Shown one piece after another: positions 19,680-54,174 of a stretch of DNA of 64,000 bases (position 1 is its first letter; every line of letters starts with the position of its first letter). The DNA comes from Agromyces larvae (lineage in GTDB: Bacteria; Actinomycetota; Actinomycetes; Actinomycetales; Microbacteriaceae): NCBI RefSeq assembly GCF_022811705.1, contig NZ_CP094528.1, positions 2,232,001 to 2,296,000 of the forward strand, in the 5' to 3' direction. The notes below the pieces were generated by a model that was not told the DNA's origin, did not search any database, and saw only the letters and a program-made list of their open reading frames with translations. The position numbers were made by a program, and so were the translations under genes.

Positions 19680-19752
19680 GGCCCCATCGTTTAGCGGCCT
19701 AGGACACCGCCCTTTCACGGCGGCAGCACGGGTTCGAATCCCGTTGGGGTCA
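19680..19752 (+). tRNA. tRNA-Glu (anticodon TTC)
   Basis: A full cloverleaf of 73 nt. The acceptor stem GGCCCCA pairs with TGGGGTC, the D-arm is GTTTAGCGGCCTAGGAC, the anticodon loop CTTTCAC carries TTC, and the T-arm ACGGG-TTCGAAT-CCCGT is intact. The discriminator base is A. The CCA end is not encoded. Confidence 0.95.
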
Positions 19753-19772
19753 CGCCGAACGGTGAGTACAAT
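19744..19772 (+). promoter_or_regulatory. Candidate promoter of tRNA-Asp inside the end of tRNA-Glu
   Basis: TTGGGG (19744-19749) is part of the tRNA-Glu acceptor region and lies 17 bases before TACAAT (19767-19772). The tRNA-Asp gene begins 18 nt later. A separate promoter would make tRNA-Asp partly independent, although cotranscription with tRNA-Glu is also possible. Confidence 0.4.
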
Positions 19773-19790
19773 TGAATAGCTTCTTTACGA

Positions 19791-19864
19791 GGCCCTGTGG
19801 CGCAGTTGGTTAGCGTGCCGCCCTGTCACGGCGGAGGTCGCGGGTTCAAGTCCCGTCAGGGTCG
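19791..19864 (+). tRNA. tRNA-Asp (anticodon GTC)
   Basis: A cloverleaf of 74 nt. The acceptor GGCCCTG pairs with CAGGGTC, the D-arm is GCGCAGTTGGTTAGCGT, the anticodon stem-loop CCGCCCTGTCACGGCGG carries GTC, and the T-arm GCGGG-TTCAAGT-CCCGT is complete. The discriminator is G, as in other bacterial tRNA-Asp. No CCA is encoded. Confidence 0.95.
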
Positions 19865-19874
19865 CTCAGGCGAC

Positions 19875-19908
19875 AAGCCCTTTCCCTTGGTTGAGAGAAG
19901 GGGCTTTC
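19875..19908 (+). terminator. Probable terminator after tRNA-Asp
   Basis: AAGCCCTTTCCC and GAGAAGGGGCTT can pair with two mismatches around a TTGGTTGA loop, followed by TTTCTCCTT. The T-rich end and position between two tRNA genes support an intrinsic terminator, which would leave tRNA-Phe with its own promoter. Confidence 0.5.
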
Positions 19909-19956
19909 TCCTTATCGAGGCATCTTCTCGTGCAGTTCTGCGAAGCGGATGCCCCG

Positions 19957-20029
19957 GGCTCTGTAGCTCAGTTGGTAGAGCGTTCGACTGAAAATCGAAA
20001 GGTCACCGGATCGATGCCGGTCGGAGCCA
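19957..20029 (+). tRNA. tRNA-Phe (anticodon GAA)
   Basis: A 73-nt cloverleaf. The acceptor GGCTCTG pairs with CGGAGCC through one G-T wobble, the D-arm is GCTCAGTTGGTAGAGC, the anticodon loop CTGAAAA carries GAA, and the T-arm is ACCGG-ATCGATG-CCGGT, with A in place of the usual first T of the T-loop. Its last 26 bases recur at 28931-28956, making it the likely integration site of the island downstream. Confidence 0.93.
20004..20029 (+). repeat. attL-like direct repeat (tRNA-Phe 3' end)
   Basis: The 26 bases from CACCGGATCGA to CGGAGCCA form the 3' end of tRNA-Phe and match 28931-28956 at 24 positions, in the same orientation. Such direct repeats of a tRNA 3' end are the usual scars of tyrosine-recombinase integration. 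Confidence 0.65.
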
Positions 20030-20034
20030 CAGTC

Positions 20035-20060
20035 AAAACCCCCGGTTTACCGGGGGTTTT
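20035..20060 (+). terminator. Intrinsic terminator after tRNA-Phe
   Basis: AAAACCCCCGG, loop TTTA, CCGGGGGTTTT: a perfect 7-bp GC stem with flanking A and T tracts, six bases after the tRNA. The 279 bases from here to the next gene (20061-20339) show no gene that I can support. Confidence 0.9.
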
Positions 20061-20327
20061 CTCGTTCTACCAGCTTCGGAACGCGACCGCGCCGATCGTG
20101 GTCTCGCACGCACGGCCGCTCAGTCGCGGGAAGCGCTCTGCGGTCTTTCGGTATCCTCCGACCTGCGGCGCAGGTTGACGCTTCCAGAGCCCCCCTTCTT
20201 CGAAGGGAACCCACGCACACGGACCTCGCCCCCGACGGGACTGAGCTGTGGATGACTGGAACGGATACCTCCGCCGACAACACCACGAAAACCCGTCGCA
20301 GATTGAATCACCGAGTCTGCCAGCGAC

Positions 20328-20333
20328 TAGGTT
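20328..20333 (+). promoter_or_regulatory. Predicted -10 box, leaderless
   Basis: TAGGTT lies exactly six bases before the GTG at 20340, and TTGAAT (20303-20308) lies 19 bases upstream of it. The layout predicts a leaderless transcript and supports the GTG start. Confidence 0.45.
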
Positions 20334-20339
20334 CGAGCC

Positions 20340-20636
20340 GTGAATACGCCGAACGATCTGAGGATTGAAGTCAACGAGCTCCGCCGGATCGCGACGCGAC
20401 TTTTCGACGCTCTCGAAGAGTCGGAAGGCGATGCGGTCGACTTAGCAGCGGACTACTTCTACTCCGTTCCGATCCCGGAGTTGTACGACGTGTCAGGTGA
20501 CGTGCCACAACTCACGATCGGCCAGCTAACCGAATCCTGGTCGAACCTTCGAACCGCCAACGACTCATCGATCCCGTGGGAGTTCGTTTGGTTCGGCGAT
20601 GTCCTGAAAGCGATCGGCCATCGATTCTCGGTGTGA
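20340..20636 (+). CDS. Unknown 98-residue soluble protein
   Basis: An acidic, soluble protein beginning MNTPNDLRIEVNELRRIATR, with a helical N-terminal third and the aromatic-rich middle DYFYSVPIPELYDV. The later segment is IPWEFVWFGDVLKAIGHRF. The mix of an acidic helix and aromatic patches resembles small immunity or antitoxin-like proteins, but no family is recognised and no toxin adjoins it. It is the first gene inside the island, 280 nt after the tRNA-Phe terminator. The GTG start is supported by the TAGGTT box 6 nt upstream. Confidence 0.65.
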   Translation: MNTPNDLRIEVNELRRIATRLFDALEESEGDAVDLAADYFYSVPIPELYDVSGDVPQLTIGQLTESWSNLRTANDSSIPWEFVWFGDVLKAIGHRFSV

Positions 20637-20880
20637 TTCGTCTACGTGCGGATGGGCCAGGACGGCACACCCAGGCCGCTGCTTGTAGCGCAGAGATCCT
20701 GCATGGGTGAGCACGTTCCGCGGTTGCGCGCCAGCCTTTGCACTTCCGGGCTCGGCTGGATGGACACGGGAACCTGTCCTGCGCCGGCCCGACTCCAACG
20801 GGCTGCCACGCTTCACAAGGTTGTTGCCCGACGGACAGGGCGGGACTTCGGCGACGCGTTGTCAGCCTAACGAGAACGGA

Positions 20881-21333
20881 CGGCCTTGGCAGGTGGGGCG
20901 GGCGGTGTGGATGAAGGAGGCGGTCGCCGGCGCCCGGCAGCATACGGTGCGGCTCCCGGCCGAATACGTCGCGGAGCACACCCATCTCGCCTACGCGTCG
21001 ACCGCTTACGGAACGCAGGGCGCGACGGCATCCGCGGCGCATACGGTGATCACCGACTCGATGGCTGCGGCGAGCCTGTACGTGGGGATGACGCGTGGAC
21101 GGAACGCCAACCGCCTGCACCTGGTCGCGGCCGACCTGGACGACGCGCGCGAGCAATTCGTGCTCGCGATGGAGCGCGACCGCGCCGATCGTGGGCTCGA
21201 CAGCGCTGCGACGGCCGCACGCGAGTCCGTGCGAGGTCTCGTCCCGAGCGCATATCAAACGCGGAACCCTTGCCCTGCTCCGTTTGAACCTGATAGGCGC
21301 CGAGAACAGCAAGCGCCAGACCTCCGCCTCTGA
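20881..21333 (+). pseudogene. Remnant of a conjugative relaxase/helicase (TraA/TrwC-like C-terminal part)
   Basis: About 115 codons read VGRAVWMKEAVAGARQHTVR, LPAEYVAEHTHLAYASTAYG and SLYVGMTRGRNANRLHLVAA. The last two segments are the terminal UvrD/RecD-like helicase motifs (TxHGxQG and VxxTRxR) of MobF relaxases. The N-terminal relaxase domain, the Walker motifs and any start codon in register are absent, and the frame ends in unrelated residues. It is a decayed trace of a plasmid or integrative conjugative element. The 250 bases before it hold nothing I can name. Confidence 0.7.
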
Positions 21334-21363
21334 ACACTTGGTTGGTAACTGCCTGAGCGATAA

Positions 21364-22050
21364 CTAGCCGCGCATGACCCGCTCGGAGCCGGAGGAGTCG
21401 ATCGGGTAGAGGCCGTCGGGGGTGGGGCGCCAGAGATTCACTCGACTGGCTGCCCAGACCAGGGCACCCGCCGCGAGTACAGCACCGAGCAGCCCGAGTA
21501 AGTGCGCGCCGAGCGAGGCGAATCCTCGTTCGGGGAGGAGGAAGCCGTACGGCACCCACCCATCGGTCGCGCCGCGAACGAGAACGACGGTTACCCAGAC
21601 GAGCGGGTAGACCACGATCAGCCAGAGCCGCCGCCAACGAAGCCGGGCGCGATCTGCAACGAGTATCCAATCCATGGTGACGATCAGGGGCAACACGATG
21701 TGAAGTACAGCGCTCACCCAGGCGGGAGCGCTTCCAGTTCCGGGTACAAGGGTGTTGTAGACGACTCCCACGACAACCAGGTAGGCCGTCGCCATCGCCC
21801 GCAGCAGATTGAGCCACCCGGGAATGGCACGCCTGCTCACCCTGAACGATCCGCTGACGATCAGCACGACACACACGAGGAGCGTCGTCTGGTTCGTGAA
21901 GTAGCCGAAATAGTCGAGCGGGTTGCTGTCTCCAACCGCGATGCGGAGCGCATAGGCGTAGCCGAGCACGACGAAACCCAGCGCAGCCACGGTGATCCGT
22001 GCCGGCCCGATCACAGACGCGAACGCGCGAAGCGCAAGACGCGACCTCAT
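21364..22050 (-). CDS. Pr6Pr family membrane protein
   Basis: A 228-residue protein with about six membrane spans. The segment DYFGYFTNQTTLLVCVVLIV, then VVYNTLVP, LHIVLPLIVTMDWILV and the LVWVTVVLVRGATDGWVPYG stretch are the landmarks of the Pr6Pr/FAR-17a (AIG1-like) membrane family. Function in bacteria is unknown; some eukaryotic relatives hydrolyse fatty acid esters of hydroxy fatty acids using conserved Thr and His, and both residues occur here. The ATG at 22050 has GAGAG upstream. It follows the next gene by 11 nt, so they are probably cotranscribed. Confidence 0.8.
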   Translation of the reverse strand: MRSRLALRAFASVIGPARITVAALGFVVLGYAYALRIAVGDSNPLDYFGYFTNQTTLLVCVVLIVSGSFRVSRRAIPGWLNLLRAMATAYLVVVGVVYNTLVPGTGSAPAWVSAVLHIVLPLIVTMDWILVADRARLRWRRLWLIVVYPLVWVTVVLVRGATDGWVPYGFLLPERGFASLGAHLLGLLGAVLAAGALVWAASRVNLWRPTPDGLYPIDSSGSERVMRG

Positions 22051-22061
22051 GCCGTCACTCT

Positions 22062-22463
22062 CTAGGTCAGCCACGCCCCACCGACCGGTCGGACGAGCAG
22101 CCAGCTCACAGGGAGAGTGACCAGCAGCATAAGAACGGCGCCTGTCAGTGTCACGACCAGGACGTTGAGGCGTGCCTGTCGAGCGAGCATTCCAGCGACG
22201 ATCGTGCATCCGGTGAGGACAATCACTCCAAACGTCCCGGCGAGCTCCGCCTGAAGCATCGCTTCGCGGACGTGCCCCTGTGACGTCGGGTCTGAATTGC
22301 CGGCGTAGGTGCACGCAACGGCGATTCCCTCGATTGTGAACGCGAGCGGGAGCAGCAACAACGCCGCACCGATGCCGTACGTCAGAGCGAGCCGCCCCAC
22401 GTGGAGATGGCTGACGGCCGGTCGAGGCCTGTTCTCCGCCATCGGTGAATCAATCTTGATCAC
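22062..22463 (-). CDS. Small membrane protein, unknown function
   Basis: A 133-residue protein with three hydrophobic spans (about residues 26-50, 73-93 and 97-123). A short extracytoplasmic loop (CTYAGNSDPTSQGHVREAML) sits between the first two. No family is recognised. The GTG at 22463 is favoured over ATG 22442 because TAGGTT lies six bases upstream, the same leaderless layout as its neighbours. It is the first gene of a two-gene unit with the Pr6Pr protein. Confidence 0.6.
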   Translation of the reverse strand: MIKIDSPMAENRPRPAVSHLHVGRLALTYGIGAALLLLPLAFTIEGIAVACTYAGNSDPTSQGHVREAMLQAELAGTFGVIVLTGCTIVAGMLARQARLNVLVVTLTGAVLMLLVTLPVSWLLVRPVGGAWLT

Positions 22464-22469
22464 GTCACG

Positions 22470-22475
22470 AACCTA
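22470..22475 (-). promoter_or_regulatory. Predicted -10 box, leaderless
   Basis: TAGGTT on the minus strand lies six bases before the GTG at 22463. It decides the start choice for that gene. Confidence 0.4.
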
Positions 22476-22607
22476 TCGGCCCGGAATCCCGCGGCAGCGT
22501 TTACGTGCGAACCCAAGTCGCTGAGTGGATCGTGCCGCGGACGTCCGAGTACCGGCCAACTTGCGAGGCGCGCTCTTGGCTGCCCACGGGGGCGTAGTTC
22601 AGCCATG

Positions 22608-23087
22608 TCATCCGCCTGGTGCGCTGGTGAAACTGAATGAGGCGCTGTCGCCGTCGAGTGAGGTGACAGTGACGGTATACGTGTTGTCTTCCTTGCAGTA
22701 CACAACGAACGCATCCGTGGTGCTCGCGCCCGGCTCGACGACCGAGGGGAATTCTCCGATCGTGTACCCACTGACCTCCTTGGCGTCGGAGCCGTCGTTG
22801 AATGGAAGATCCCACTCGGTCCAACTTGAGCCGTCGAAGACGGCAATGTCGTCCTCGTCAAAATCGACAGGCCTTGTGCTGATGTTCTCGACTCTCACTC
22901 CGACTCCGCAGTAGCCGTCGAGGGACCACCTGATCTGATCAGCTGAGATCCGCAGGTTGGCTGTCTCGACTTCGGCGGGCGGTGTCTTCAGCTCGAGGAG
23001 GCTGCACCCCGTCAGCAGTCCCATGGAAACGAGCCCACCCAGCAAGGCCCCATTTGTTCGGGCGGCTAGTGGAAACCTTCGCGACAT
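22608..23087 (-). CDS. Lipoprotein, unknown function
   Basis: A 159-residue lipoprotein. A twin-Arg-free signal segment ends in the lipobox LLTGC (Cys at about 28). The mature part contains alternating beta-type stretches, with NLRISADQIRWSLDGYCGVG and a C-terminal VTVTSLDGDSASFSFT, suggestive of an immunoglobulin-like beta sandwich. Two further Cys residues could form a disulfide. No family is recognised. A TACGCT box six bases before the ATG suggests a leaderless mRNA. It lies in the island beside another lipoprotein gene. Confidence 0.7.
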   Translation of the reverse strand: MSRRFPLAARTNGALLGGLVSMGLLTGCSLLELKTPPAEVETANLRISADQIRWSLDGYCGVGVRVENISTRPVDFDEDDIAVFDGSSWTEWDLPFNDGSDAKEVSGYTIGEFPSVVEPGASTTDAFVVYCKEDNTYTVTVTSLDGDSASFSFTSAPGG

Positions 23088-23093
23088 GGCCAG

Positions 23094-23099
23094 AGCGTA
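23094..23099 (-). promoter_or_regulatory. Predicted -10 box, leaderless
   Basis: TACGCT on the minus strand is exactly six bases before the lipoprotein ATG at 23087. Confidence 0.4.
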
Positions 23100-23172
23100 T
23101 GCGATTTCCCGAAGTCGATGTTGAGCACATCAATCATGCGTGTCCAGAGAGGGACTCCGGTGAGGCGGATGG

Positions 23173-23751
23173 TTACCCGACAACGACGACGTATGCGTCG
23201 TGGGTTGCGGCCCAGTCGCTGGCCGCCGCGACCATCGCGTCTTTGTCGCTGTTGCCTACGAACTCCGCCCCGCCGGATTCGTCGAGGGAGGAGATCGTGT
23301 TCCAGACGCCGAGGTCCTGGTAGACGATGACGACGGGGCGACCGATCTGGTCCGCGTACGTGCTCGCCACCTCGAGGATACTTCTCCGGCCCGCCATGGG
23401 CGCGAACTCATCAACGGTCTGTGTTTGCGCCGCGCCGGGCACCGCGTCGGCGACGATCTGGTCGATGATCAGCTGCGGCAGGGGCCGCCCGGGCGTCAGC
23501 ACGACGACGGTGCCATCGTGAAGGATGATGTCGCGAGGGGCGTGCCTCGCGAGCACTTGCTTCTCGAACTCGGAGAGCTCACCGTCCCCGTCTGCATCCC
23601 CCTTAATCGGCGCCGGATTCGCCGCGGCGGTCGCCTTCGGCGCCGTCTCGGCGCCGGCCAAGAACAAGGCGTCCGCAGCGGTACAGCCTGAAAGCACGGG
23701 CAGCACCAGCACCGCAGTGAGGGCGACACCGCAAATCCGGGTCGTCATCAT
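23173..23751 (-). CDS. Lipoprotein with EF-hand-like loop
   Basis: A 192-residue lipoprotein with lipobox VLSGC (Cys at about 23). The mature protein starts with an Ala-rich linker, followed by DADGDGELSEFEKQVL, which has the D-x-D-x-D-G-x-L-x-x-x-E spacing of a calcium-binding EF-hand or dockerin loop. The C-terminal region (IGRPVVIVYQDLGVWNTISS and ATHDAYVVVVG) is alpha/beta and resembles a TPM or thioredoxin-like fold only loosely. Function unknown. A TAGATT box lies six bases upstream of the ATG. Confidence 0.7.
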   Translation of the reverse strand: MMTTRICGVALTAVLVLPVLSGCTAADALFLAGAETAPKATAAANPAPIKGDADGDGELSEFEKQVLARHAPRDIILHDGTVVVLTPGRPLPQLIIDQIVADAVPGAAQTQTVDEFAPMAGRRSILEVASTYADQIGRPVVIVYQDLGVWNTISSLDESGGAEFVGNSDKDAMVAAASDWAATHDAYVVVVG

Positions 23752-23757
23752 GCGGCG

Positions 23758-23763
23758 AATCTA
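23758..23763 (-). promoter_or_regulatory. Predicted -10 box, leaderless
   Basis: TAGATT on the minus strand is six bases before the ATG of the EF-hand lipoprotein at 23751. The remaining spacer to the next gene (23764-24027) holds the GntR-type palindrome and no clear gene. Confidence 0.45.
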
Positions 23764-23976
23764 TCGCCCGCGGCCAACTCTGCAAGCCGTGCGGCCGACA
23801 GCAATCGCGACACCCAGCCGCAGGCAAGGGTCGTCAGGCAGTGAACACGTTAGGCCAACCACGAGCATCATGCCGATCGCGACCGCCATGATGGGGTGAT
23901 CGGAGTGATGCTCAGCGCCGGCTGCGAGGCGGGCGCGTAGAGGCCCCTACTCGGCGAATCTTGTACTCGTGCCTTG

Positions 23977-23989
23977 ACACAAGTTGTGT
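23977..23989. promoter_or_regulatory. Palindrome ACACAA-G-TTGTGT, candidate GntR operator
   Basis: A perfect 13-base palindrome overlaps TTGACA (23974-23979) and lies 39 nt before the permease start. The GntR regulator encoded just downstream is the obvious candidate to bind it, because GntR/YtrA-type regulators usually repress their own operon. Confidence 0.5.
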
Positions 23990-24027
23990 TAGACATGTGG
24001 CACAACATCCGCCGTGATCGGAGTCTC

Positions 24028-25074
24028 ATGCCGTACGACAAGATCGCCTCCATTGCCCCGCTCGATCTCATCGCCGCCGCGTTCTCGACGCCGTTGTTCT
24101 CGCTCGCCGTCGCTGCGGTCATCGCTGCGACTCTGCTCATCGTTTCCCGAATCCGCCGCGACCGCCAGACCGATCCACCGATCGCCTCGTCCGCGCTGGA
24201 GTCCGTCACCAAGCACTACCGACCAGAGCAGATTGCGGTTGGGGTCGGCGCGATCTCCGTGATCGCCGCCTTCACAATCGAGAACGTCGTGCGCGGGTAC
24301 ATGATGAATCTGGTCGACATCGTCGAGTGGTGGCAGTACGCGACACCGGTGTTCGCCGCGGCCGTCTGCCTCACGGCGGTGCTCGTCGTGATCTTGTTCC
24401 GAGGCTCAGTTCCACCGGAGCGCCCGGTCTTACCCATCGCGCGTCGCACGTGGACGAGCTTCAGTTCGAGAGGCGCTCTCCTCGGCGCGGGAGTGACACT
24501 CGCAGTTCTGCTCACCACGACGATCGCGGCGGGTCTGGCGTCATCCTCGGATGAGCGTGGTCGCTACATCTACCTTGAGATCGCCGTGCCGAACGTACCG
24601 ATCGACCCACTGTGGCCATGGTTCTACGGTTGGTCGTTCGGCGTTCCTGTCCTCGTCTGCCTCGCTGCACTGGCCTTGGCGACCTGGGCGACGCTACGAG
24701 CAAACGCGACCCGGCCATTCCGGCGCCCGGAAACCGTGACTGCCGAGCGGGCGACCCGCGCTCAGATCGCCTCCGGGGTCGCACTCATCGCGACTGGAGG
24801 GATGCTGCTCGCCCTCGCAGGGGCTTGGCGGTTCATCGGCCGTTCGGGCACGATCTCTCAACTGATCGTCGGTGGTGACCAGCGGGACCACACCTATGAG
24901 CTGTCCTGGCGATACGCCGAGTTCGCCGCCGCGGGCGGATTCCTGGCACCGGCCCTCGAGATCACCGCCTTCGTGCTGCTTCTGGTGGTCGCAAGCCGGC
25001 TGGGACGCGCGAGCTCCAGTCATTCGACGGTCGAGACCACTCAGCAGACCCCCGACCCCCAGGTCGTGCGATGA
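24028..25074 (+). CDS. Multi-pass membrane protein partnered with a GntR regulator
   Basis: A 348-residue protein with about seven hydrophobic spans, for example LFSLAVAAVIAATLLIVSRI and AGVTLAVLLTTTIAAGL. A periplasmic stretch carries YIYLEIAVPNVPIDPLWPW. No transporter motif is recognised. Pairing with a YtrA-type GntR gene through an ATGA overlap is typical of small drug- or stress-responsive membrane operons. The ATG at 24028 is chosen because GGAG sits at a good distance; a longer frame would start inside the palindrome. Confidence 0.7.
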   Translation: MPYDKIASIAPLDLIAAAFSTPLFSLAVAAVIAATLLIVSRIRRDRQTDPPIASSALESVTKHYRPEQIAVGVGAISVIAAFTIENVVRGYMMNLVDIVEWWQYATPVFAAAVCLTAVLVVILFRGSVPPERPVLPIARRTWTSFSSRGALLGAGVTLAVLLTTTIAAGLASSSDERGRYIYLEIAVPNVPIDPLWPWFYGWSFGVPVLVCLAALALATWATLRANATRPFRRPETVTAERATRAQIASGVALIATGGMLLALAGAWRFIGRSGTISQLIVGGDQRDHTYELSWRYAEFAAAGGFLAPALEITAFVLLLVVASRLGRASSSHSTVETTQQTPDPQVVR

Positions 25075-25493
25075 GCGCCCAGCCCATCACACCCCCGACC
25101 GAAGAGGCGAGCCCCGCGCTCGGCATCTACCGCCAGTTCCGCGGCCTCATCGTTTCGGGACAACTCGGAGCGGGCGAACGACTCCCCACGGTTCGCCAGA
25201 CCGCCAGTGACCTCAGCGTCGCACCGGGCACCGCAGCCAGGGCGTACAAGATGCTCGAACGCGACGGACTCGTCGTCACCCGCACCGCCGCAGGGACCCG
25301 CGTCGCTGCGCAAGCGGCGGTGCTCCCCGGCAACGTCGTACGACGCATCCGCGAACTCATCGCCGAAGCCGACGCCGCCCACGCGAACCCTGACGACGTC
25401 ATCGACGTGCTTCGCCTCGCATGGCAGCCGAGTCTCACGTCGCCCGAAACTTCGAACTCACAAGTTCCGCCGAATGGAAGCTGGACACACTGA
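25071..25493 (+). CDS. GntR family transcriptional regulator (YtrA type)
   Basis: A 140-residue regulator. The winged-helix domain covers about residues 15-80: IYRQFRGLIVSGQLGAGERL, then LPTVRQTASDLSVAPGTAAR as the recognition helix and YKMLERDGLVVTRTAAGTRV as the wing. The C-terminal part is only about 55 residues, too short for an effector domain of FadR or HutC type, so it belongs to the short YtrA group. The ATG overlaps the permease stop (ATGA). It probably autoregulates through the upstream palindrome. Confidence 0.85.
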   Translation: MSAQPITPPTEEASPALGIYRQFRGLIVSGQLGAGERLPTVRQTASDLSVAPGTAARAYKMLERDGLVVTRTAAGTRVAAQAAVLPGNVVRRIRELIAEADAAHANPDDVIDVLRLAWQPSLTSPETSNSQVPPNGSWTH

Positions 25494-25597
25494 TGAACGC
25501 CCAACCTGTCGATCCTGCAGCGATCAGCCTGCCGCCCACACAACCGCTCGACGTTACCGCCTACCTCCCGAAGCCCACCGACGAGCCGCCTGACTGA
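25493..25597 (+). CDS. Possible 34-residue coupled peptide
   Basis: The frame begins at an ATG that overlaps the GntR stop codon (TGATG) and encodes MNAQPVDPAAISLPPTQPLD followed by 14 more residues. It is Pro-rich and acidic at its end. The coupled start is the only support beyond length. It could equally be a chance frame before the decayed AbiEii copy. Confidence 0.3.
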   Translation: MNAQPVDPAAISLPPTQPLDVTAYLPKPTDEPPD

Positions 25598-25660
25598 CGC
25601 AACCATGGGTTGGTCGATGAGACTCGACGATCGCCGCCACGGCCCCGGTCTTGCGCAGAA

Positions 25661-26050
25661 TGGCTCCTGAAGGGCGGAACTGGCGTCCTCGCCCGGGTCG
25701 CCTCGGGCCGATGCACCACGGACGTCGACCTGTTCCGAGCGAACTACACGCTCGACGGCGCCTTCGCAGAACTGATCCGCCTCGCCGCCATCGGCCTCGG
25801 CGACTGCTTCCGATTCGTCTACACGAGGCACCGGGCGGTCGTCGGCGGTGATCAGCAGACCTACACCGAGGGATGCGGCGTCGACGTCGACGTCGACATC
25901 GGTGCCGACCGCAAGGAACCGCTGCACGTCGACCTCGTCGCCGGCGTTATCGTGACGGACGAGGTGACGGTCGCGGCGCCGGCCAATCGCCGCGACCTGC
26001 CGCGGCTCCCGAGCAACGACTACCGTTTCTACTCCGTCGTCGACCAGAGC
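25661..26050 (+). pseudogene. Truncated second copy of the AbiEii-type nucleotidyltransferase
   Basis: About 130 codons align with the intact toxin gene at 27793-28704. WLLKGGTGVLARVASGRCTT corresponds to WMLKGGTSMLARVPSARTTI; DVDLFRAN is identical; VVGGDQQTYTEGCG matches VGGGQQTYTEGYG; and DLPRLPSNDYRFYSVVDQ matches DLPKLPSHPYRLYPVVDQ. The GGTS motif has become GGTG. The N-terminal ~55 residues and the C-terminal half are missing, and no start or ribosome site is seen. The rest of the 560-base gap shows no gene. Confidence 0.8.
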
Positions 26051-26159
26051 AACGACACCCCACCGCAGGCGGGGGTCGTCCCGCAGCGCGCTTGGAGGAT
26101 GGGATCCGACGGGCGGGCCGGCGGCCGGTACGATTCACGCAACCTGTCGAGGAGGACGC

Positions 26160-26660
26160 TTGAAGAACATTTCCGTCGTCGGAACCGTGATTGTCGTATG
26201 CGGTCTCGCCGCGCTGTTCACCGGTTGCGCCCCCAGTGATTCGGTGGCCTCGGGCCCCCCGCCGGCCACCACCCCGGCAGGGATACCGGACCCGGTCGCG
26301 GGCTCGTCCGATGCTGACGCAGATGCATGCGCTCAGCTCACCGCTCCGATCTCCCTGGTTCAGAATGCGCAGCTGGCTCCTGACGGCGCCATGGACAAGG
26401 TCACGGCGCGTGGGTTGTACTTCACGGCGGGTTGGGAGTTCGCTCGGATCGGGAAGAGCATGACGGATTCCGTCCTCAGCACGCCCATCACCTCTCTTGA
26501 GCAGGCTTCCAACGCGATGAATATCGACATGCACGCCACTGACGACCCGTCGAAGTGGGCGGACAACCTCGACAAGCTGGATGCTGCGGTCCAGGAGGTC
26601 AACGCATTCTGCAGGAACCTCGACGAGAACTGGGGAACGCTCGGCTGGTACGGAGGATAA
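26160..26660 (+). CDS. Lipoprotein, unknown function
   Basis: A 166-residue lipoprotein starting at TTG, chosen because GAGGAGG lies 4 nt upstream; no ATG or GTG fits. The signal peptide ends in lipobox LFTGC (Cys at about 23), followed by a Pro/Ser/Asp-rich linker. The helical domain includes LTAPISLVQNAQLAPDGAMD and ADNLDKLDAAVQEVNAFCRN. A Cys pair in the mature part could bridge. No family is recognised. It stands alone between the broken and the intact AbiEii copies. Confidence 0.65.
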   Translation: MKNISVVGTVIVVCGLAALFTGCAPSDSVASGPPPATTPAGIPDPVAGSSDADADACAQLTAPISLVQNAQLAPDGAMDKVTARGLYFTAGWEFARIGKSMTDSVLSTPITSLEQASNAMNIDMHATDDPSKWADNLDKLDAAVQEVNAFCRNLDENWGTLGWYGG

Positions 26661-26773
26661 CCATCCTGTGCGCGGCGAGCGGAACCGGTCGGGACGGAGA
26701 TAGCTGCCGCGTGCGCAAGCGGCCGCATCACTCACTGAGCAGGGAAAATGCAATGACCTCTGCTTAACTCACG

Positions 26774-26788
26774 CTAACGCGTTAGAAT
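26774..26788 (+). promoter_or_regulatory. Promoter/operator of the AbiE operon
   Basis: The perfect palindrome CTAACGCGTTAG (26774-26785) overlaps the -10 box TAGAAT (26783-26788), which lies exactly six bases before the abiEi ATG. No ribosome site is present, so the mRNA is probably leaderless. AbiEi antitoxins are known to bind inverted repeats and repress their own operon, and this palindrome is well placed for that. Confidence 0.6.
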
Positions 26789-26794
26789 TGCAGC

Positions 26795-27796
26795 ATGAAG
26801 TCACGCGAGGCGCTCCGAGTGCTCGCCGAAGTGACGGAGTCCCAGTGGGGACTGGTCACGTCGGCGCAGGCGCTCGCGCGCGGCGTGAGCCATATGAACC
26901 TCGCCCGCCTGGCTGACGCAGGCGACCTCATTCGACTGGCCCATGGCGTGTATCGGGATGCCGGCGCGCCCGGCCCCGAGCATGAGGAACTGCACGCAGC
27001 CTGGCTCGCGACCGAGCCGAAACGGCTCGCCTGGGAGCGACTGTCGGATCGCACACCGAGCGCCGTCGTCTCTGGCGAATCGGCCGCACGTCTGCACCGC
27101 ATCGGCGACCTGCGGGCCATGCGCAGTGAACTCACGACGGCAACTCGGCGGCAGACACGTCATGCCGACATCCGCTACCGAACACGCGAGCTTCCCATCG
27201 AAGACGTCACTGTGCGCGAGGGCCTGCCGGTCACGACCCGCGAACGCACGATTGCCGACCTCGTCGAAGCCCGCGAAGATCTCAGCAACGTCGGCAATGT
27301 GCTCCGCGATGCCGTCAATCAATCCGAGCTAGACACCGACCGGCTCATCGAACTGCTCGCGCCACTCGCCGCGCGGAACGGCTATCGCAAGGGCAACGGG
27401 ACAGCGCTCCTCGCCGAGCTCTATCGAATTGCTGGAATCGATCGTGACAGTGTCATCGAGCAGATCGACGCCGTGCCTGAGCTCAGCACTCGCGTCATGG
27501 TGAAGAATCTGGAGCGACTCGCAAACCTCGACGTTTCCATGTTCCGGGATCCGGCGAACGTACAGCTGGCGATGACGCTGCAACCGGTCTTCGAAAAACT
27601 CATCGCCAAGTCGGAGGAGTTACGCCACGCGCTGGAATCCGTGAGTCCGAACGAAGATGAAGCCTCAGCTCTTGGTGACGGCCCAACCCTCGCAGAGATC
27701 CGCGAGATCGCGAATGTCATGGAGTCAACAGATTGGGCCGAACTCGCCAGCGCCCTGCGCCTCGCCCGAGCAGCCCAGGAGACCGAGCCCTCATGA
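26795..27796 (+). CDS. AbiEi-family antitoxin
   Basis: A 333-residue protein. The N-terminal winged-helix region (WGLVTSAQALARGVSHMNLA, then LIRLAHGVYRDAGAP) matches the AbiEi_4 family. It is followed by the VSGESAARLHRIGDL segment and a mixed C-terminal domain with LPVTTRERTIADLVE. In type IV AbiE systems AbiEi represses the operon and counteracts the AbiEii toxin. It overlaps the toxin gene by ATGA. The protein is longer than classical AbiEi (~270 residues), with an extra helical C-terminus of about 60 residues. Confidence 0.85.
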   Translation: MKSREALRVLAEVTESQWGLVTSAQALARGVSHMNLARLADAGDLIRLAHGVYRDAGAPGPEHEELHAAWLATEPKRLAWERLSDRTPSAVVSGESAARLHRIGDLRAMRSELTTATRRQTRHADIRYRTRELPIEDVTVREGLPVTTRERTIADLVEAREDLSNVGNVLRDAVNQSELDTDRLIELLAPLAARNGYRKGNGTALLAELYRIAGIDRDSVIEQIDAVPELSTRVMVKNLERLANLDVSMFRDPANVQLAMTLQPVFEKLIAKSEELRHALESVSPNEDEASALGDGPTLAEIREIANVMESTDWAELASALRLARAAQETEPS

Positions 27797-28704
27797 CCGA
27801 ACCCGAGAAGTACGGCAGCCCCGCCGCCGTCGAGTCCGCGATCAACGCAGCGGCCCGCAAGGCCAGCGCAGCCGACCCGTCGCTCACTGTGCAGGAACGT
27901 GTTCGGCTCGAGTACTTCAACCGCTTCCTGAGCCGGATTTTCTCCGAGCCAGACAACCCCGGGTGGATGCTCAAGGGCGGCACGAGCATGCTTGCCCGGG
28001 TGCCCTCCGCACGCACGACGATCGACGTCGATCTCTTCCGCGCGAACCGTTCGATCGACGCGGCTCTGGATGACCTCCGCCGGCTCGCGGCCGTCGACCT
28101 TGGCGACTACTTCCGATTCGAGTACCTCGATCACACCAGCGCTGTCGGCGGCGGCCAGCAAACCTATACCGAGGGGTACGGAGTCCGCTTCGACGTGTAC
28201 ATCGGCATCAAGCGGAAGGATCCGCTGCACGTCGACCTGGTCGTCAACGTCCTCACCACCGACGATGCCGATGTCGCTTCCCCCGCGAACGCCCTCGATC
28301 TCCCGAAGCTTCCGAGCCACCCCTACCGCCTCTACCCGGTCGTCGACCAGATCGCCGACAAGGTATGCGCGACCCTTGTACGGTACAACGGCCACCCGTC
28401 CAGCCGCGAGAAGGATCTCGTCGACCTCGTCGTGCTCGCCGTCACCCAAGACGTCGACGCAGTCAAACTGCGGCGGGCACTCGAAGTTGAGGCGCGCAAC
28501 CGGTCGCTGGTACTCCCCGCCGCGTTCACGGTCCCGGCGACTTGGGGTTCCCGCTACGCCAAACTCGCCGCACCTCTCCCTGCATGCAGCGACTTCCGCT
28601 CGGTCGACGCCGCGCTCGAACTAGTGCATATCTTCATCGACCCCGTACTTCGGGGCGAAGCATCCGTCCTCACGTGGTCGCCGAAACTGCTCGCCTGGAG
28701 ATGA
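27793..28704 (+). CDS. AbiEii-family nucleotidyltransferase toxin
   Basis: A 303-residue protein of the AbiEii/AbiGii nucleotidyltransferase family. The catalytic pattern is MLKGGTSMLARVPSARTTID followed by DVDLFR (GGTS and D-x-D), with downstream KRKDPLHVDLVVNVL supplying the third acid, and later SREKDLVDLVVLA. Toxins of this family add nucleotides to tRNA acceptor stems or use other nucleotides to block growth, often protecting against phage. The start overlaps abiEi (ATGA). It is the last gene before the right repeat of the island. Confidence 0.87.
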   Translation: MTEPEKYGSPAAVESAINAAARKASAADPSLTVQERVRLEYFNRFLSRIFSEPDNPGWMLKGGTSMLARVPSARTTIDVDLFRANRSIDAALDDLRRLAAVDLGDYFRFEYLDHTSAVGGGQQTYTEGYGVRFDVYIGIKRKDPLHVDLVVNVLTTDDADVASPANALDLPKLPSHPYRLYPVVDQIADKVCATLVRYNGHPSSREKDLVDLVVLAVTQDVDAVKLRRALEVEARNRSLVLPAAFTVPATWGSRYAKLAAPLPACSDFRSVDAALELVHIFIDPVLRGEASVLTWSPKLLAWR

Positions 28705-28930
28705 GCGTCCGCGCGGGGTTGCCGGACGCGAGTAACCCGCCGCTCGCGGCGGTCAAGCGAGCGGCTCCGATGTCCCACCCGGAAGAAGCAAGGTAAGCAG
28801 ATCAGCCGATCTTGGGCCATTTGGGCCATTAATGGCGCAAACGTAACTGAAACCAACTGTGACGATTTCGCGGAATCCCTGATCAGCGCGATATCACAAC
28901 CATAGGAACAGTGCCGAAAACCGCCCCAGG

Positions 28931-28956
28931 CACCGGATCGACGCCCGTCGGAGCCA
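28931..28956 (+). repeat. attR-like direct repeat (tRNA-Phe 3' end copy)
   Basis: CACCGGATCGACGCCCGTCG followed by GAGCCA matches the tRNA-Phe 3' end with two differences. The preceding GAAAA also recalls the anticodon region of that tRNA, hinting that the copied segment was longer. It marks the right end of the island. Confidence 0.6.
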
Positions 28957-28996
28957 TGGATTCTTCCGAGCCCACCCCAGCGCGATGTCCACTAAT

Positions 28997-29026
28997 TTGA
29001 ACATGTGAGTACACTGTTCAGTTAAT
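28997..29026 (+). promoter_or_regulatory. Promoter and operator of the HTH/Fic pair
   Basis: TTGAAC (28997-29002) and GTTAAT (29021-29026) are separated by 18 bases. Between and across them lie TGAACA and TGTTCA (28998-29003 and 29015-29020), a perfect inverted repeat that also encloses GTG-AGTA-CAC. The HTH protein encoded downstream is the likely ligand. Confidence 0.45.
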
Positions 29027-29060
29027 TGGATGCCTGCCAGAGCGAGGTGAGGTGAGTTGG

Positions 29061-29822
29061 ATGAGCGTGTTCACGATCCGCGACGCCGTTGCGCGGATGC
29101 CGTACAGCAAATCGGAGTTGGCGCGTCGAGCTCACGTTTCGCGCACCACTGCACTCTCAGTGTCCGCAAACCAGTCACGCGCGCGGGTCGACACGCTCCG
29201 CGAGCTGGCACTCGCCCTCGGCTACGACATCTCCATCGAGCTCGATCGCGCAAGCGACCCACTGGCGGCGGCGGCAGCACGCGTCATGCTCGGGGAGACG
29301 GCTCTCCGCGAGATCCTCGAGGTTCGTGAACTCGACGCTTGGATCGCGCGACTGGAGCGCTACGTGGGGGTCGATGGCGCATCGGGTGAAGGCCTGGACA
29401 CGCTTGCTGTCATCACCGAAGCAGCTCGCGTGTCGGGCGCTCATCACCGCGAGGGCGCGGTCATGTTCAGCGGCCGCAACGACGCCGACCGGCTGGTTTC
29501 GGCCGGTCGCTCGTCAGGCGCACGATGGGTGCTCTCGGGCTCTGCTTCGCTCGAGGCGCTCGGAGCCGACCCGGGCAAGACCGTCGTATTCTGGGCCGAG
29601 GACGCGAAGCACGTCGCGGAGTTGCTTACAGCCACACACCGCCAGGTCAAGATCCACGCGGCCGCCGACGTGATCGTGGCGCCCGCCCATCCGAGCGTGT
29701 TCGCGGGCTCGACGACGATCGAGGACGTGAACCTCGTGTCCCCGATGCAGGGGATCATCGACGCAGTCGCGATCGGCGGCATCGACCGCGAAATCGCCGA
29801 ACAACTCGCAGGGAGTTGGTGA
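29061..29822 (+). CDS. HTH protein with AbiEi-like C-terminus, probable antitoxin of Fic
   Basis: A 253-residue protein. The N-terminal HTH is MPYSKSELARRAHVSRTTAL, followed by RVDTLRELALALGYDISIEL, an XRE-type arrangement. The C-terminal part (about 90-250) contains GAVMFSGRNDADRLVSAGR, WVLSGSASLEAL and VNLVSPMQGIIDAVAIGG. The last resembles the V-x-x-x-S-P-x-Q-x-x-x-D end of AbiEi-like antitoxins. GGTGAG precedes the chosen ATG; a GTG at 29052 is possible. It lies 3 nt upstream of fic, so a repressor/antitoxin role is inferred. Confidence 0.7.
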   Translation: MSVFTIRDAVARMPYSKSELARRAHVSRTTALSVSANQSRARVDTLRELALALGYDISIELDRASDPLAAAAARVMLGETALREILEVRELDAWIARLERYVGVDGASGEGLDTLAVITEAARVSGAHHREGAVMFSGRNDADRLVSAGRSSGARWVLSGSASLEALGADPGKTVVFWAEDAKHVAELLTATHRQVKIHAAADVIVAPAHPSVFAGSTTIEDVNLVSPMQGIIDAVAIGGIDREIAEQLAGSW

Positions 29823-29825
29823 ACG

Positions 29826-30704
29826 ATGAACGCCGCAACGGATGAGCCGCGCGGCAGCGGCCCCGCATACGTACGGCGGCCTGCCGGTCGCGCACGAACT
29901 GGGTGGCCGGCGACTCAGAGCGGCACGTTTCCAGGCGACGAGCTCACGCGCGCCGAGAAGCTCGACCTGCTCGGCATCGACTGGGACTGGTCGGGCATCG
30001 ACACGTCCGTGATCGGCGGGAGCGAAGGCGAACTTGCGGTCGAGCGATCGCTCGCGCGCTTCCGGGCCAACCTGGCGGTCATCGTCTGGGATGCCGCGCG
30101 GCTCGAGGGCAACACCTTCACGCTCCCCGAGGTGCAGACCCTCCTCGACGGCGTCACCGTCGAGGGCAAGAAGATCGAGGAGCAGCAGCAGGTGCTCGCT
30201 CTGAACGAGGCCTACAACGAGCTCGACCGCTTGATGCGGGCCGGCGAGTTCAGGGTGACCAAGGATGTCTCGGACAAGCTGCACGGGCTCGTCGCACGTC
30301 ACGAAGCGATCGAGTCGGGACGTTTCCGCGGCGAGGGATTGGTGGACGGCGGCGGGTCGGTGCGGTTGTCGACCGGCGGTGTGGTCGACGGGCGGGCGCA
30401 CGGTGATGGTGTGTGCGTGCTCGTCGAAGCGTTCAACGACCTGACGGACTACCTCGACGGCGTGAGCGACCCGCGTCAGAAGGCGCTGCTCTACGCCGCC
30501 TCGGCGACGCGGCACCAGTTCTACTTCGACGGCAACAAGCGCACCGCGAAGCTCATGGCGTCGGGAGTGCTCATGTCGGCGGGTTTCGACGCGATCTCGG
30601 TGCCGTACAGCCGGCTCTACGAGCAGAACGTCTCCCTCGACCGTCTCTTCTCGACCAACGACGCGACGGGCTACATGAACCTGCTCGCGGACTGCGCGCG
30701 GTGA
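29826..30704 (+). CDS. Fic family protein
   Basis: A 292-residue enzyme likely to AMPylate (or otherwise modify) a target protein. The Fic core motif is HQFYFDGNKRTAKLM (residues 230-244), with catalytic His 230 and the DGNKR phosphate-binding loop. An N-terminal RLEGN segment (92-96) matches the inhibitory-helix E-G/N pattern except that the usual Ser/Thr four residues before Glu is Ala, so self-inhibition is plausible. It follows the HTH gene by 3 nt. Its 3' end abuts a truncated gene on the opposite strand. Confidence 0.88.
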   Translation: MNAATDEPRGSGPAYVRRPAGRARTGWPATQSGTFPGDELTRAEKLDLLGIDWDWSGIDTSVIGGSEGELAVERSLARFRANLAVIVWDAARLEGNTFTLPEVQTLLDGVTVEGKKIEEQQQVLALNEAYNELDRLMRAGEFRVTKDVSDKLHGLVARHEAIESGRFRGEGLVDGGGSVRLSTGGVVDGRAHGDGVCVLVEAFNDLTDYLDGVSDPRQKALLYAASATRHQFYFDGNKRTAKLMASGVLMSAGFDAISVPYSRLYEQNVSLDRLFSTNDATGYMNLLADCAR

Positions 30705-31007
30705 CGTCAAACGGAGCACGTGACGCTCGCGCACCCACTCGAACCCGGGGAAGCCCGGGCTCGCCTGATGCCGCGAGGTGACGACCGTCGCCAGGTCGCT
30801 CAACTCCGCGGGCATCGCATCGCCGTGGGTGGCCCCGAGGGCTTCGAGCTCCGCGCCGGTCAGCGCATCGGCCGGATCGACCTCGACGACATGGGGCACC
30901 TCCTGATCGGGGCCCGTCTGCGGACCGGATGCGCAGGCCGTCAACGCGGCGACACCGATCGTAGCCGCGACGACGGCCGCACGGTTGAGCCGTCGTCTGG
31001 TCGCCAT
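30705..31007 (-). pseudogene. Truncated lipoprotein gene (5' fragment)
   Basis: An ATG at 31007 opens a clear lipoprotein N-terminus, MATRRRLNRAAVVAATIGVA followed by lipobox LTACA, then GPQTGPDQEVPHVVEVDPAD and onward to FEWVRERHV. From about 30705 the frame has no stop of its own and simply runs antisense through fic. The C-terminal part of the gene is therefore missing. The junction coincides with the end of fic, suggesting that arrival of the HTH/Fic pair removed it. The original function is unknown. Confidence 0.65.
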
Positions 31008-31083
31008 GGCGCGATGCTCTCCGACGTGAGGTCCGAGCGAGGACTCCTCGACAGCACCGCCATCCACCGGCATGATCGAGCGC

Positions 31084-31782
31084 ATGGTGTCGACCACCGC
31101 ACCGGCCGCGGGCGGCCAGCCCGCCCCGACCGCCGCCGACGTGCGGCGGCAGCTCGAGGCATCCGCGTCGCTCGCCGAGCGCGAGAAGACGATGAAGCGC
31201 ATGACGGATGCCGCGACTCCCGTGCTGGGCGTGCGCATGGGCACGGTGTTCGCCATCGCGAAGGCGAACGTCGGGATGCCGCTCGCCGAGGTCGACCGGA
31301 TGCTCGACGACGACACGTACGAGGTGCGCGTCGCAGCGGTGAGCATCCTCGACTTCACAGCTCGGCAGCGGCGCACGACCGACGCCGACCGGCGGGCGAT
31401 GTTCGAGCTGTGGATGCGGCGGCTCGACCGCCTCGACACGTGGGATCTCATCGACCGCGCGGCACCGCGCGTGATCGGCTGGTATCTGCTCGACAAGCCC
31501 CGCGACATCCTGTTCGAGCTCGCGCGTGACGAGGAGTGGTGGCACCGCCGCACCGCGATCACGGCCGCGTTCTGGATCATCCGCGCCGGCGACCTCGACG
31601 ACCCGCTCGCGCTCTGCGAATTGCTCGCGGCCGACGCGGTGCACTTCGTGCAGACGAACGTGGGCGTCGCGCTGCGCGAGATCGGGCGGGTCGACCGGGT
31701 GCGGCTCGAGGAGTTCCTCGCCCGGCGAGGCGACGACCTCAGCGCGCACGCGCGGCGCACGGCGCGGTCGGCGCTCGGCTGA
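31084..31782 (+). CDS. DNA alkylation repair protein (AlkD-like)
   Basis: A 232-residue all-helical HEAT-like repeat protein. Landmarks are MGTVFAIAKANVGMPLAEVD, EVRVAAVSILDFTARQRRTT, LDTWDLIDRAAPRVIGWYL, and EEWWHRRTAITAAFWIIRAG. The D-x-x-D and W-x-x-R residues that hold damaged bases in AlkD glycosylases are visible in these helices. Such enzymes excise bulky or alkylated purines without base flipping. Starts at 31072 or 31084 are possible; I chose the second because GAGCG lies just upstream. It stands alone. Confidence 0.85.
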   Translation: MVSTTAPAAGGQPAPTAADVRRQLEASASLAEREKTMKRMTDAATPVLGVRMGTVFAIAKANVGMPLAEVDRMLDDDTYEVRVAAVSILDFTARQRRTTDADRRAMFELWMRRLDRLDTWDLIDRAAPRVIGWYLLDKPRDILFELARDEEWWHRRTAITAAFWIIRAGDLDDPLALCELLAADAVHFVQTNVGVALREIGRVDRVRLEEFLARRGDDLSAHARRTARSALG

Positions 31783-31820
31783 GGCATCCGGCCGCGAACC
31801 GCGCCGCCGCGAACCGCCCG

Positions 31821-32504
31821 TCAGTGCGCGTCGTCCATGCCCGTGACGTGCACCGAGCGGCCGTGGCATCCGGCCTGCTGCCAGTCGTAGTCCTCGCCGA
31901 GCGGTCGGTCGGCGGGCCCGTCGAGCGCTTCGGCGTAGGCCGGGTCGCTGTAGTCGTTCAGGTTCTCGCCCCAATCGCCCTCGACGCGCATCCAATACGG
32001 CGTGAATCGATAGCCGAAGCCCTTCTCGACCATGCAGTCGCCGTCGAGTTCAGCCTGTTTCAGCCAGATCTTCGCGTGGTCGATCTCGGCTTGCGTCCAG
32101 TCGGCGGGCAACGGAATGAGCGAGACGTCGGTCGTCTCGTCGTAGATGGGCGAACCGGCCGCGTTCAGGGCGACAGCGCCGGGCGGCAGCACCGGGTCGG
32201 CGCCCACCTCGCCCGCGGGTTCGGCGGCGCCGGCCCCCACGTCGGTTCCGAAGGTCGGTTCGACACCATCGGATGCCTCGGGCTCGGCGCTCGGAGCATC
32301 CGTCGCTGTGGACTCGGCGACCACCCGCTCGGCCGGCGGTTCGAGGCTCGCGATCGAGGCCGCAGCCGACGCGGCGAGCGTGACACCCGCGCCGAGCGCG
32401 ACGGCGACGCCGACGGCCCCGGCGATGAGCGCGACGCGCGGTGCGCGCGACGGGCGGGCGTCGCGCCGGCGCTCGTCGTCGAGGAGATCCTGGAGGTCGG
32501 GCAT
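31821..32504 (-). CDS. Membrane-anchored protein, unknown function
   Basis: A 227-residue protein: a short basic N-terminus (MPDLQDLLDDERRRDARPSR), one membrane span (about 24-48), an Ala/Glu/Pro/Ser linker (to about 110) and a C-terminal domain. The domain contains WTQAEIDHAKIWLKQAELDG, then DCMVEKGFGYRFTPYWMRVE and AGCHGRSVHVTGMDD; two Cys may form a disulfide. No family is recognised, although the C-terminal W-x-x-x-Q-x-x-C pattern is common in Microbacteriaceae exported proteins. AAAGGA precedes the ATG. It lies 50 nt downstream of the PadR operon. Confidence 0.7.
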   Translation of the reverse strand: MPDLQDLLDDERRRDARPSRAPRVALIAGAVGVAVALGAGVTLAASAAASIASLEPPAERVVAESTATDAPSAEPEASDGVEPTFGTDVGAGAAEPAGEVGADPVLPPGAVALNAAGSPIYDETTDVSLIPLPADWTQAEIDHAKIWLKQAELDGDCMVEKGFGYRFTPYWMRVEGDWGENLNDYSDPAYAEALDGPADRPLGEDYDWQQAGCHGRSVHVTGMDDAH

Positions 32505-32554
32505 GGCGGTCCTTTCGTCGGGCGGTGCGGCGAGCAGTTCGGCGAGCGGTGCGA

Positions 32555-33388
32555 TCAGACGGTGACGGATGCCTCGGGGCGCCGCGGGCGCGACGACCAC
32601 CACCAGTTGACGGCGGCCGTGACGCAGAGCACGGCGAGGCCGCCGCCGAGCACGTACGCGGCGGGTTCCCACCACGGGACGCGGTTGACGACAACGACCA
32701 TCAAGGCGCTGATCCAGTACAGCGCCTGCCCGACGGCCGAGGGCAGCAGTGCGGCGGGCACGGCCAGCACGAGCGCGCCGAATGCGCGGCTGCGGCGGCG
32801 CAGCACCAGCAGTGTGGCGAGCGCGGCGACGGCGGCGAGGCCGATCACGGTCACCACGTCGGAGGGCACGTACCCGATGTCGCCGATCGCGAGCGCGCGC
32901 ACGATGCGGAAGACGAGGAAGACGCCGGATCCGGCGAGCACCACGCCGACGGCGAGCACGGCCGACAGCAGCGCACCGTTCGTGCGGAGCGCGAAGCGGC
33001 GGTCCGGCTCCGACTGTCGCACCTGCCGGTGCCGCCAGGCGAGGTCGGCCGGCATGCCGAGGAGGCGGCGCCGGCGCACCTGCCGGGCGAGCGCCGCGGG
33101 CGAGAGCCCCTCCTCGGCGGCCCAGACGGCGTGCTCGTGCAGGTCGCTCGCGATCTCGTCCTGCCGGTCGGCGGCGACGCGCGCGTCGAGGCCCCGCGTG
33201 TAGGTCAGCGTCCAGCGCAGCACCCCGCGGGCGGCGCGGTGGAACTGCGGGCTGCGTTCGGGCGATCTCCCGAGGCCGGATGCCGCGGGGCGACGGGAGC
33301 CCGAGGCATCCGTGCTGCCCGAGGCATCCGGTCGCTTGGCCGTCGCCGTCGCCTTCGTGACCGGCACCACCGGTGTCGCCGCGCTCAT
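32555..33388 (-). CDS. Membrane protein cotranscribed with PadR regulator
   Basis: A 277-residue protein. A Ser/Ala/Arg-rich N-terminus leads into the conserved soluble region RWTLTYTRGLDARVAADRQD, EIASDLHEHAVWAAEEGLSP and RQVRRRRLLGMPADLAWRHR, followed by four membrane spans (about 135-265). The soluble part recalls the permease-associated regions of PadR-linked membrane proteins. The start overlaps the padR stop (ATGA), so the two are translated together. A membrane-stress or export role is possible but not shown. Confidence 0.75.
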   Translation of the reverse strand: MSAATPVVPVTKATATAKRPDASGSTDASGSRRPAASGLGRSPERSPQFHRAARGVLRWTLTYTRGLDARVAADRQDEIASDLHEHAVWAAEEGLSPAALARQVRRRRLLGMPADLAWRHRQVRQSEPDRRFALRTNGALLSAVLAVGVVLAGSGVFLVFRIVRALAIGDIGYVPSDVVTVIGLAAVAALATLLVLRRRSRAFGALVLAVPAALLPSAVGQALYWISALMVVVVNRVPWWEPAAYVLGGGLAVLCVTAAVNWWWSSRPRRPEASVTV

Positions 33389-33732: not shown

Positions 33733-33735
33733 GGA

Positions 33736-33767: not shown

Positions 33768-33803
33768 AGAGGCGATCGGATGCTCCGACTCGGCCGCGTC
33801 CGC

Positions 33804-34664: not shown

Positions 34665-34670
34665 GGCCCG

Positions 34671-34676: not shown

Positions 34677-34705
34677 CCTCGCAAGCGAGCCGGCCGAACC
34701 GGTGC

Positions 34706-54158: not shown

Positions 54159-54174
54159 CGATGACAATGTCGTC

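Follow-up and report, generated by a model that had tools for sequence, protein, structure and literature searches.

Probable remains of integrative mobilizable elements behind the tRNA-Phe gene of Agromyces larvae

The region that starts at the tRNA-Phe gene of Agromyces larvae and extends to about 31 kb of the DNA analysed here (the window: 64,000 nucleotides, positions 2232001–2296000 of a single-contig genome of 4,005,264 bases) very probably consists of the remains of integrative mobilizable elements (IMEs), with two or more of them likely stacked at the same site, as judged from sequence comparison. The original prediction, a guess made without comparative data, was that a 26-bp repeat marked an element that had integrated at the 3' end of tRNA-Phe and had since lost its integrase. 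That guess was borne out by the finding of fuller relatives at the same place in other genomes, whose ends are matched by both ends of the window island. What comparison shows is where the insertion took place, to which family it belongs, both of its ends, the loss of the integrase, a broken right attachment site (attR) and AbiE open reading frames (ORFs) free of internal stops. The presence of at least two stacked elements is suggested, because there are two relaxase tails in a row. The features of the region are listed in Table 1, in the coordinates of the window.

Three tRNA genes, for tRNA-Glu, tRNA-Asp and tRNA-Phe, are found in a row at 19680–20030. As had been predicted, the end of the last of these recurs downstream in the same orientation, with 24 of 26 bases identical between 20004–20029 and 28931–28956. 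When up to three mismatches were allowed, the repeat pattern occurred nowhere in the genome but at these two places, and a reversed control pattern was not found at all. In 40 first-order Markov resamples of 20041–64000, searched on both strands, the best 26-base match reached 17–21. The repeat is therefore real and specific, and the concern that such a match might arise often by chance was dispelled by the lack of a third copy in the 4.0 Mb genome.

Comparison was made with 36 relatives from the same genus (Agromyces) and 23 genomes of other genera. The tRNA-Phe loci of 35 same-genus genomes were read, and the locus of G007, at which only the tRNA-Glu was matched, was left out. In 14 of the 36 there is a tyrosine integrase that shares 75% identity or more with the one in G011, a relative, and no more than ~130 bases separate any of the 14 from a tRNA-Phe 3' end; 13 are beside the gene, and the one in G013 is beside a displaced copy that follows another element. 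Two of these integrases, in G008 and G022, are truncated. The next best-scoring match in 60 genomes was only 39% identical (G042, another genus). The A. larvae genome has ten places with a phage-integrase domain, none of them in the window, and the best match to the family integrase, at 33%, lies elsewhere, so that the predicted loss of the integrase was upheld. Relaxase sequence accompanies the integrase in 13 of its 14 bearers, being partial in G004 and G022 and missing from G008. A scan for further tRNA-Phe tails downstream (29-base query, up to five mismatches) found them in 12 of the 35 loci, with the nearest clear ones at 3 kb and the farthest at 68 kb; an earlier 30-base query over shorter stretches gave 11. 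The family integrase is present in ten of these 12 loci, the others being G030 and G035, and both G013 and G018 have two downstream tails. In the fuller relatives the flanking repeats are near-perfect over 44–46 bp, the order and strand of the relaxase are conserved, and elements with a full integrase and both repeats range from 10 kb (G010) to ~30 kb (G013).

The gene content of the fuller relatives is that of mobilizable elements. The 76 ORFs of seven of them (G010, G011, G019, G021, G023, G028 and G033) include seven phage-type integrase and seven TrwC/MobF relaxase matches; the relaxase of G023 is split over two ORFs and the right repeat of G019 is broken. Cargo varies, with proteins of the kind found in cyclic oligonucleotide-based anti-phage signaling systems (CBASS: TIR-SAVED, ThiF, JAB and SMODS) in G023, HipA in G011, and type I restriction and E1-E2 type proteins also among the 76 ORFs (among the matches listed, which cover 25 of 59 Pfam families). 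PF02534 (coupling protein), PF12846 (VirB4-like) and PF01580 (FtsK) were the transfer families searched for, in ten IME-bearing genomes and in that of A. larvae, and by coordinates no match was found inside the tRNA-Phe elements. As they have an integrase and a relaxase and no match to these three families, the fuller relatives appear, as far as tested, to be IMEs. An integrative and conjugative element (ICE) or its actinomycete counterpart (AICE) was ruled out for them on the same three families.

Additional named loci with a family integrase were found (n = 23), of which 17 reached at least 73% identity: 13 from Agromyces, two from Cryobacterium (one a metagenome bin), one from Leifsonia and one from an Actinomycetales bin. 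This set is not independent, as at least eight of the 17 loci are probably from duplicates of genomes among the 36 relatives. In all 17 a tRNA-Phe-like tail was found 50–117 bases from the integrase match, and a tRNA scan of 12 of them called a tRNA-Phe gene beside nine, with a tail only in L084, L090 and L094. In L090 (Leifsonia poae; positions 11268 and 20988) a tRNA-Phe tail adjoins the family integrase, ~9.7 kb from the tRNA-Phe gene, and the IME apparently stands in tandem, with another element in front of it. The integrase of L084 (Cryobacterium fucosi) adjoins a tRNA-Phe-like tail and shares 92% identity with its G011 counterpart, which suggests transfer across genera; in L094 the family integrase is likewise beside a tail with no tRNA gene called. 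The 39%-identical integrase of G042 (locus L113) lies ~160 bases past tRNA-Phe, a hint that the site is used beyond the genus.

At its left boundary, the DNA upstream of the window island is collinear with 29 of 29 relative loci as far as 20036–20069, where collinearity ends (the loci reach ~1.5 kb past the tRNA). The stretch directly behind tRNA-Phe is a terminator-like sequence of 36 bases. An ungapped identity of at least 26 to it was found in 12 of the 14 integrase-bearing relatives, and in G011 all 36 bases are the same. The two exceptions are G036 (17/36) and G013, whose family element lies away from the gene. Among the 21 other loci it was seen at this level once, in G032 (31 bases), which is itself a remnant; terminators of different sequence are present behind tRNA-Phe in IME-free genomes too. 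On its attL side the window island has the tRNA 3' end and a terminator of the element type. A 22-base repeat from the right end (as in G028) is also seen near the left end in 13 of the 35 relatives and behind the displaced tail of G013, and it may be an integrase arm site.

The right boundary is marked by a conserved right end (RE) of the family, which was matched at 78–93% in 15 of the 36 same-genus relatives and in none of the 23 genomes of other genera. Thirteen of the 15 have their RE at the tRNA-Phe locus; that of G036 is found at the end of a separate, unlinked contig, and in G026 a remnant lies elsewhere, beside tRNA-Met, with a decayed tail adjoining. A full tRNA tail directly follows the RE in ten genomes and a broken one in G019 and G022; only an RE fragment is present in G032. 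Among the named loci the RE was detected in L095 only; none was found at E ≤ 1e-4 in the flanks of the Cryobacterium, Leifsonia and Actinomycetales loci, most of which are too short to reach a right end. In the window the RE directly abuts the repeat, at the same position relative to attR as in the relatives. The window attR lacks ~20 bp of the anticodon arm, a part that is kept in all 11 aligned relatives, and in this alignment no terminator follows it. Because of this loss the window repeat is probably dead. The GAAAA in front of the right repeat, which the original prediction had read as a trace of the anticodon region, proved to be something else. The same bases occur in the RE of G011 and G023, and the alignment of relatives assigns them to the RE, with the anticodon-arm part deleted.

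The tRNA-Phe genes of the 35 same-genus genomes are of two types that differ at 7 bases, and the window right repeat agrees with type B at two of three diagnostic bases; G042 is intermediate, so nothing was inferred from this. Right repeat and host tRNA-Phe are of one type in the ten family elements whose tails are full. The broken tails beside the RE in G022 and G026 resemble the other type, a hint that the tRNA 3' end can be exchanged by elements.

The variable region extends past the right repeat, where the original prediction had placed the limit of the element, to ~31043. A pair of genes for a helix-turn-helix (HTH) and a weakly Fic-like protein lies beyond the damaged attR. In L095 (A. 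bracchium) their homologs sit between the integrase, which matches over residues 84–400 only, and the RE. The Fic-like protein was found in five of 59 other genomes, in none of them near tRNA-Phe by coordinates. The closest relative by tRNA cluster, G004, has at this locus an integrase, an excisionase-like gene, residues 1–89 of the relaxase and the gene pair at 23974–25493, followed by core DNA that matches the window from 31044. G004 and the window may be two remnants of one old insertion. The core genes in window 31044–35785 form two blocks whose order is swapped relative to G004.

Table 1. Features of the variable region behind tRNA-Phe (window coordinates).
Feature	Position	Strand	Basis or remark
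tRNA-Phe (GAA), intact; attachment site (attL side) in its 3' part	19957..20030	+	ARAGORN
Terminator-like sequence following tRNA-Phe, of the type that family elements have at their left end	20031..20066	+	Ungapped 36-base identity
Relaxase C-terminal fossil A (ERDRADRGL...), directly behind terminator	20073..20150	+	tblastn, G011 relaxase residues 851–876, 65%, E = 1.4e-4 in 11-kb island
Relaxase C-terminal fossil B	20905..21285	+	Residues 764–893 of the 909-aa MobF relaxase of G011, 64%, E = 1e-39
Pr6Pr-family membrane protein	21364..22050	-	Homologs in relatives
Lipoprotein-like gene	22608..23087	-	No family match
Lipoprotein-like gene	23173..23751	-	No family match
Membrane protein	23974..25074	+	At this locus only in G004; elsewhere in G013, G029
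GntR-family regulator, paired with the membrane protein at 23974..25074	25071..25493	+	Pfam PF00392
AbiEii fragment	25661..26056	+	Matches residues 58–189 of the intact AbiEii, 63%
Lipoprotein-like gene	26160..26660	+	No family match
AbiEi antitoxin ORF, no internal stops	26795..27796	+	Pfam PF13338; PADLOC AbiEi, E = 6.8e-92
AbiEii nucleotidyltransferase toxin ORF	27793..28704	+	Pfam PF08843; PADLOC AbiEii, E = 4e-115
Conserved RE of the IME family, ~125 bp	28806..28931	+	Match in 15/36 same-genus relatives; alignment with 11
Damaged attR: T-arm/acceptor part of tRNA-Phe	28931..28956	+	Alignment with 11 relatives
HTH protein, outside damaged attR	29052..29822	+	39% homolog inside A. bracchium IME L095
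Weakly Fic-like protein	29826..30704	+	58% homolog adjoining the HTH homolog in L095

Comparison of the interior of the window island with the earlier reading of it revealed both agreement and variation. The relaxase fragment then noted is real (fossil B), and a second, shorter one was found in front of it (fossil A), whose motif is present in ten of the 11 relaxase C-termini compared; the eleventh sequence, from G029, was excerpted at the wrong place. The three small proteins that had been called lipoproteins do have lipobox-like starts, as judged by eye only. The supposed duplicated toxin family turned out to be AbiEii, which is indeed present twice, but one copy is a truncated fragment beside a single AbiEi-AbiEii pair, the two ORFs of which are adjacent with a 4-base overlap. 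AbiE-type genes recur in relatives at the tRNA-Phe locus or beside the RE. In G018 an AbiEi is 71% identical over 248 residues and its neighbour matches no window ORF; in G036 an AbiEi-AbiEii pair lies just past the broken attR on the unlinked contig; and in G032 an AbiEii tail accompanies the RE fragment. Over the fetched loci AbiEi was matched in G018 and G036 only, and AbiEii in G036 and as the G032 fragment only.

The base composition that had been proposed as a check is supportive only. GC content is 64.8% for 20067–28956 and 67.2% for 28957–31043, in comparison to 71.3% and 73.5% in the 10-kb flanks, and there is a dip across the island (64–66% versus ~70–75%), but it is not special to the island. 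A second long stretch of low GC, 48000–64000 (63–67% versus 70–75%), is possibly another island.

Several observations weigh against the region being stacked IME remains. Of sliding windows of the size of the island, 34 of 276 across the window are as low in GC, partly because 48–64 kb is equally low. The 22-base repeat was not found in the window at up to three mismatches, as it was not at the left end of G011. Support for fossil A comprises ~24 codons only. An empty site, which the original prediction expected to join 20030 directly to 28957, was not encountered: none of the 35 relative loci has the DNA from 28957 onward beside tRNA-Phe. Among the genes between the relaxase and the RE, those of AbiE type alone had a match within or next to a family element (G018, G032 and G036). 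Homologs of the Pr6Pr protein (64–69%) occur in three relatives: in G018 and G021 they lie downstream of tRNA-Phe but not inside the IME, and in G034, where the family integrase is missing, close to tRNA-Phe. Four further homologs (59–62%) are elsewhere in G013, G019, G028 and G033. The gene pair at 23974–25493 adjoins core DNA in G004. From the Pr6Pr homologs and this pair, part of the island interior may be captured or chromosomal. Taken to its end, this would mean that mobile DNA is limited to AbiE, the RE and the two relaxase tails, and that 21364–25493 is ordinary flanking DNA caught by rearrangement between the tRNA and a right end that had moved, for which the RE remnant of G026, away from tRNA-Phe, offers some precedent. 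We consider this doubtful, since the window Pr6Pr gene has a GC content of 65%, in contrast to 70–71% in G018, G021 and G034, and the nearest relative, G004, has a Pr6Pr homolog of only 32% identity and at another place.

A single IME, with its left part deleted after one insertion and the short second relaxase tail produced by local duplication, is a somewhat better candidate and still an unlikely one. The order of relaxase, cargo, RE and attR is collinear with that of single elements, and the two tails are identical at 27 of 29 bases. However, there is no further blastn match between the tails beyond those 29 bases, the HTH-Fic pair lies beyond attR, and tandem tails do occur in G013 and G018. 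That the repeat arose by chance beside unrelated cargo would agree with the right copy being imperfect and without its anticodon part; given 24 of 26 matches against 17–21 in the resamples, the absence of a third genomic copy and an RE that directly abuts the repeat, this is exceedingly improbable, and it was rejected on the genome search and the resamples.

For the stacked IME remains that we favour, a likely course of events can be outlined. An element would integrate at the tRNA-Phe 3' end and resupply both that end and a terminator, whereby the tRNA would stay functional, and the old tRNA 3' end would be displaced outward as attR. The MobF relaxase would let a helper conjugation system transfer the element. 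Later deletions, in an order that is presumed here, would have taken out the integrase and excisionase, the bulk of the relaxase and some of attR; what stayed is the AbiE pair as cargo, two relaxase tails and one right end. The broken attR would prevent excision, and AbiE may have been kept as a stabilizer or for phage defence. More speculatively, and with a probability that we rate as low, tRNA-Phe in Agromyces and its kin could serve a MobF-type IME family as a dock that is loaded repeatedly with defence modules. The window would then be an end state in which successive elements were trimmed to useful cargo (AbiE) and locked in by damage to the att core, with the damaged attR preserving a displaced older tRNA-Phe 3' end.

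These data point to an IME family with a MobF relaxase that uses tRNA-Phe in Agromyces and has anti-phage cargo in some members; integrases close to its own are present in Cryobacterium and Leifsonia. For the host, tRNA-Phe is a variable locus at which anti-phage genes come and go. Among published titles on integrative elements of Agromyces and Microbacteriaceae, in a search that most subscription journals lay outside of, there was nothing on a tRNA-Phe IME family.

The known systems are compared here as excerpts of the cited papers describe them. The fuller relatives resemble IMEs and iMOB (PMC5704250, PMC11389934) in their tyrosine integrase, tRNA 3'-end target, direct repeats and own relaxase, in the lack of a match to the coupling-protein, VirB4-like and FtsK families, and, in some, in toxin-antitoxin or restriction cargo. 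They differ from canonical IMEs in that their relaxase is MobF, as in the excerpted text of the 2017 review no known canonical IME encoded MobF or MobH (PMC5704250); later literature was only briefly searched. With AICEs (PMC3218068) they share an actinobacterial host and a tyrosine integrase, and the targets of AICEs are mostly tRNA 3' ends, but AICEs use a transfer protein of FtsK/SpoIIIE type, which was seen in none of the ten elements checked. Unlike an IME, the window island is a decayed remnant, with no family integrase in its genome and relaxase fragments only. It resembles a cis-mobilizable element (CIME), which has lost its integration and transfer genes and kept attL and attR (PMC5704250), being similar in its missing integrase, its relaxase fragments, its cargo between att-like sites and its tandem build-up at one target; it differs in its attR, which has lost ~20 bp. 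AbiE is a type IV toxin-antitoxin system carried by ICEs, and is reported to stabilize one in Streptococcus suis (PMC11062541); the window similarly has an AbiEi-AbiEii pair with an integrated element, but that element has decayed, and any role of AbiE in it is putative. Overall, we conclude that the window island is a further case of a known type of element, and that its interest lies mainly in the MobF-type IME family that it revealed.

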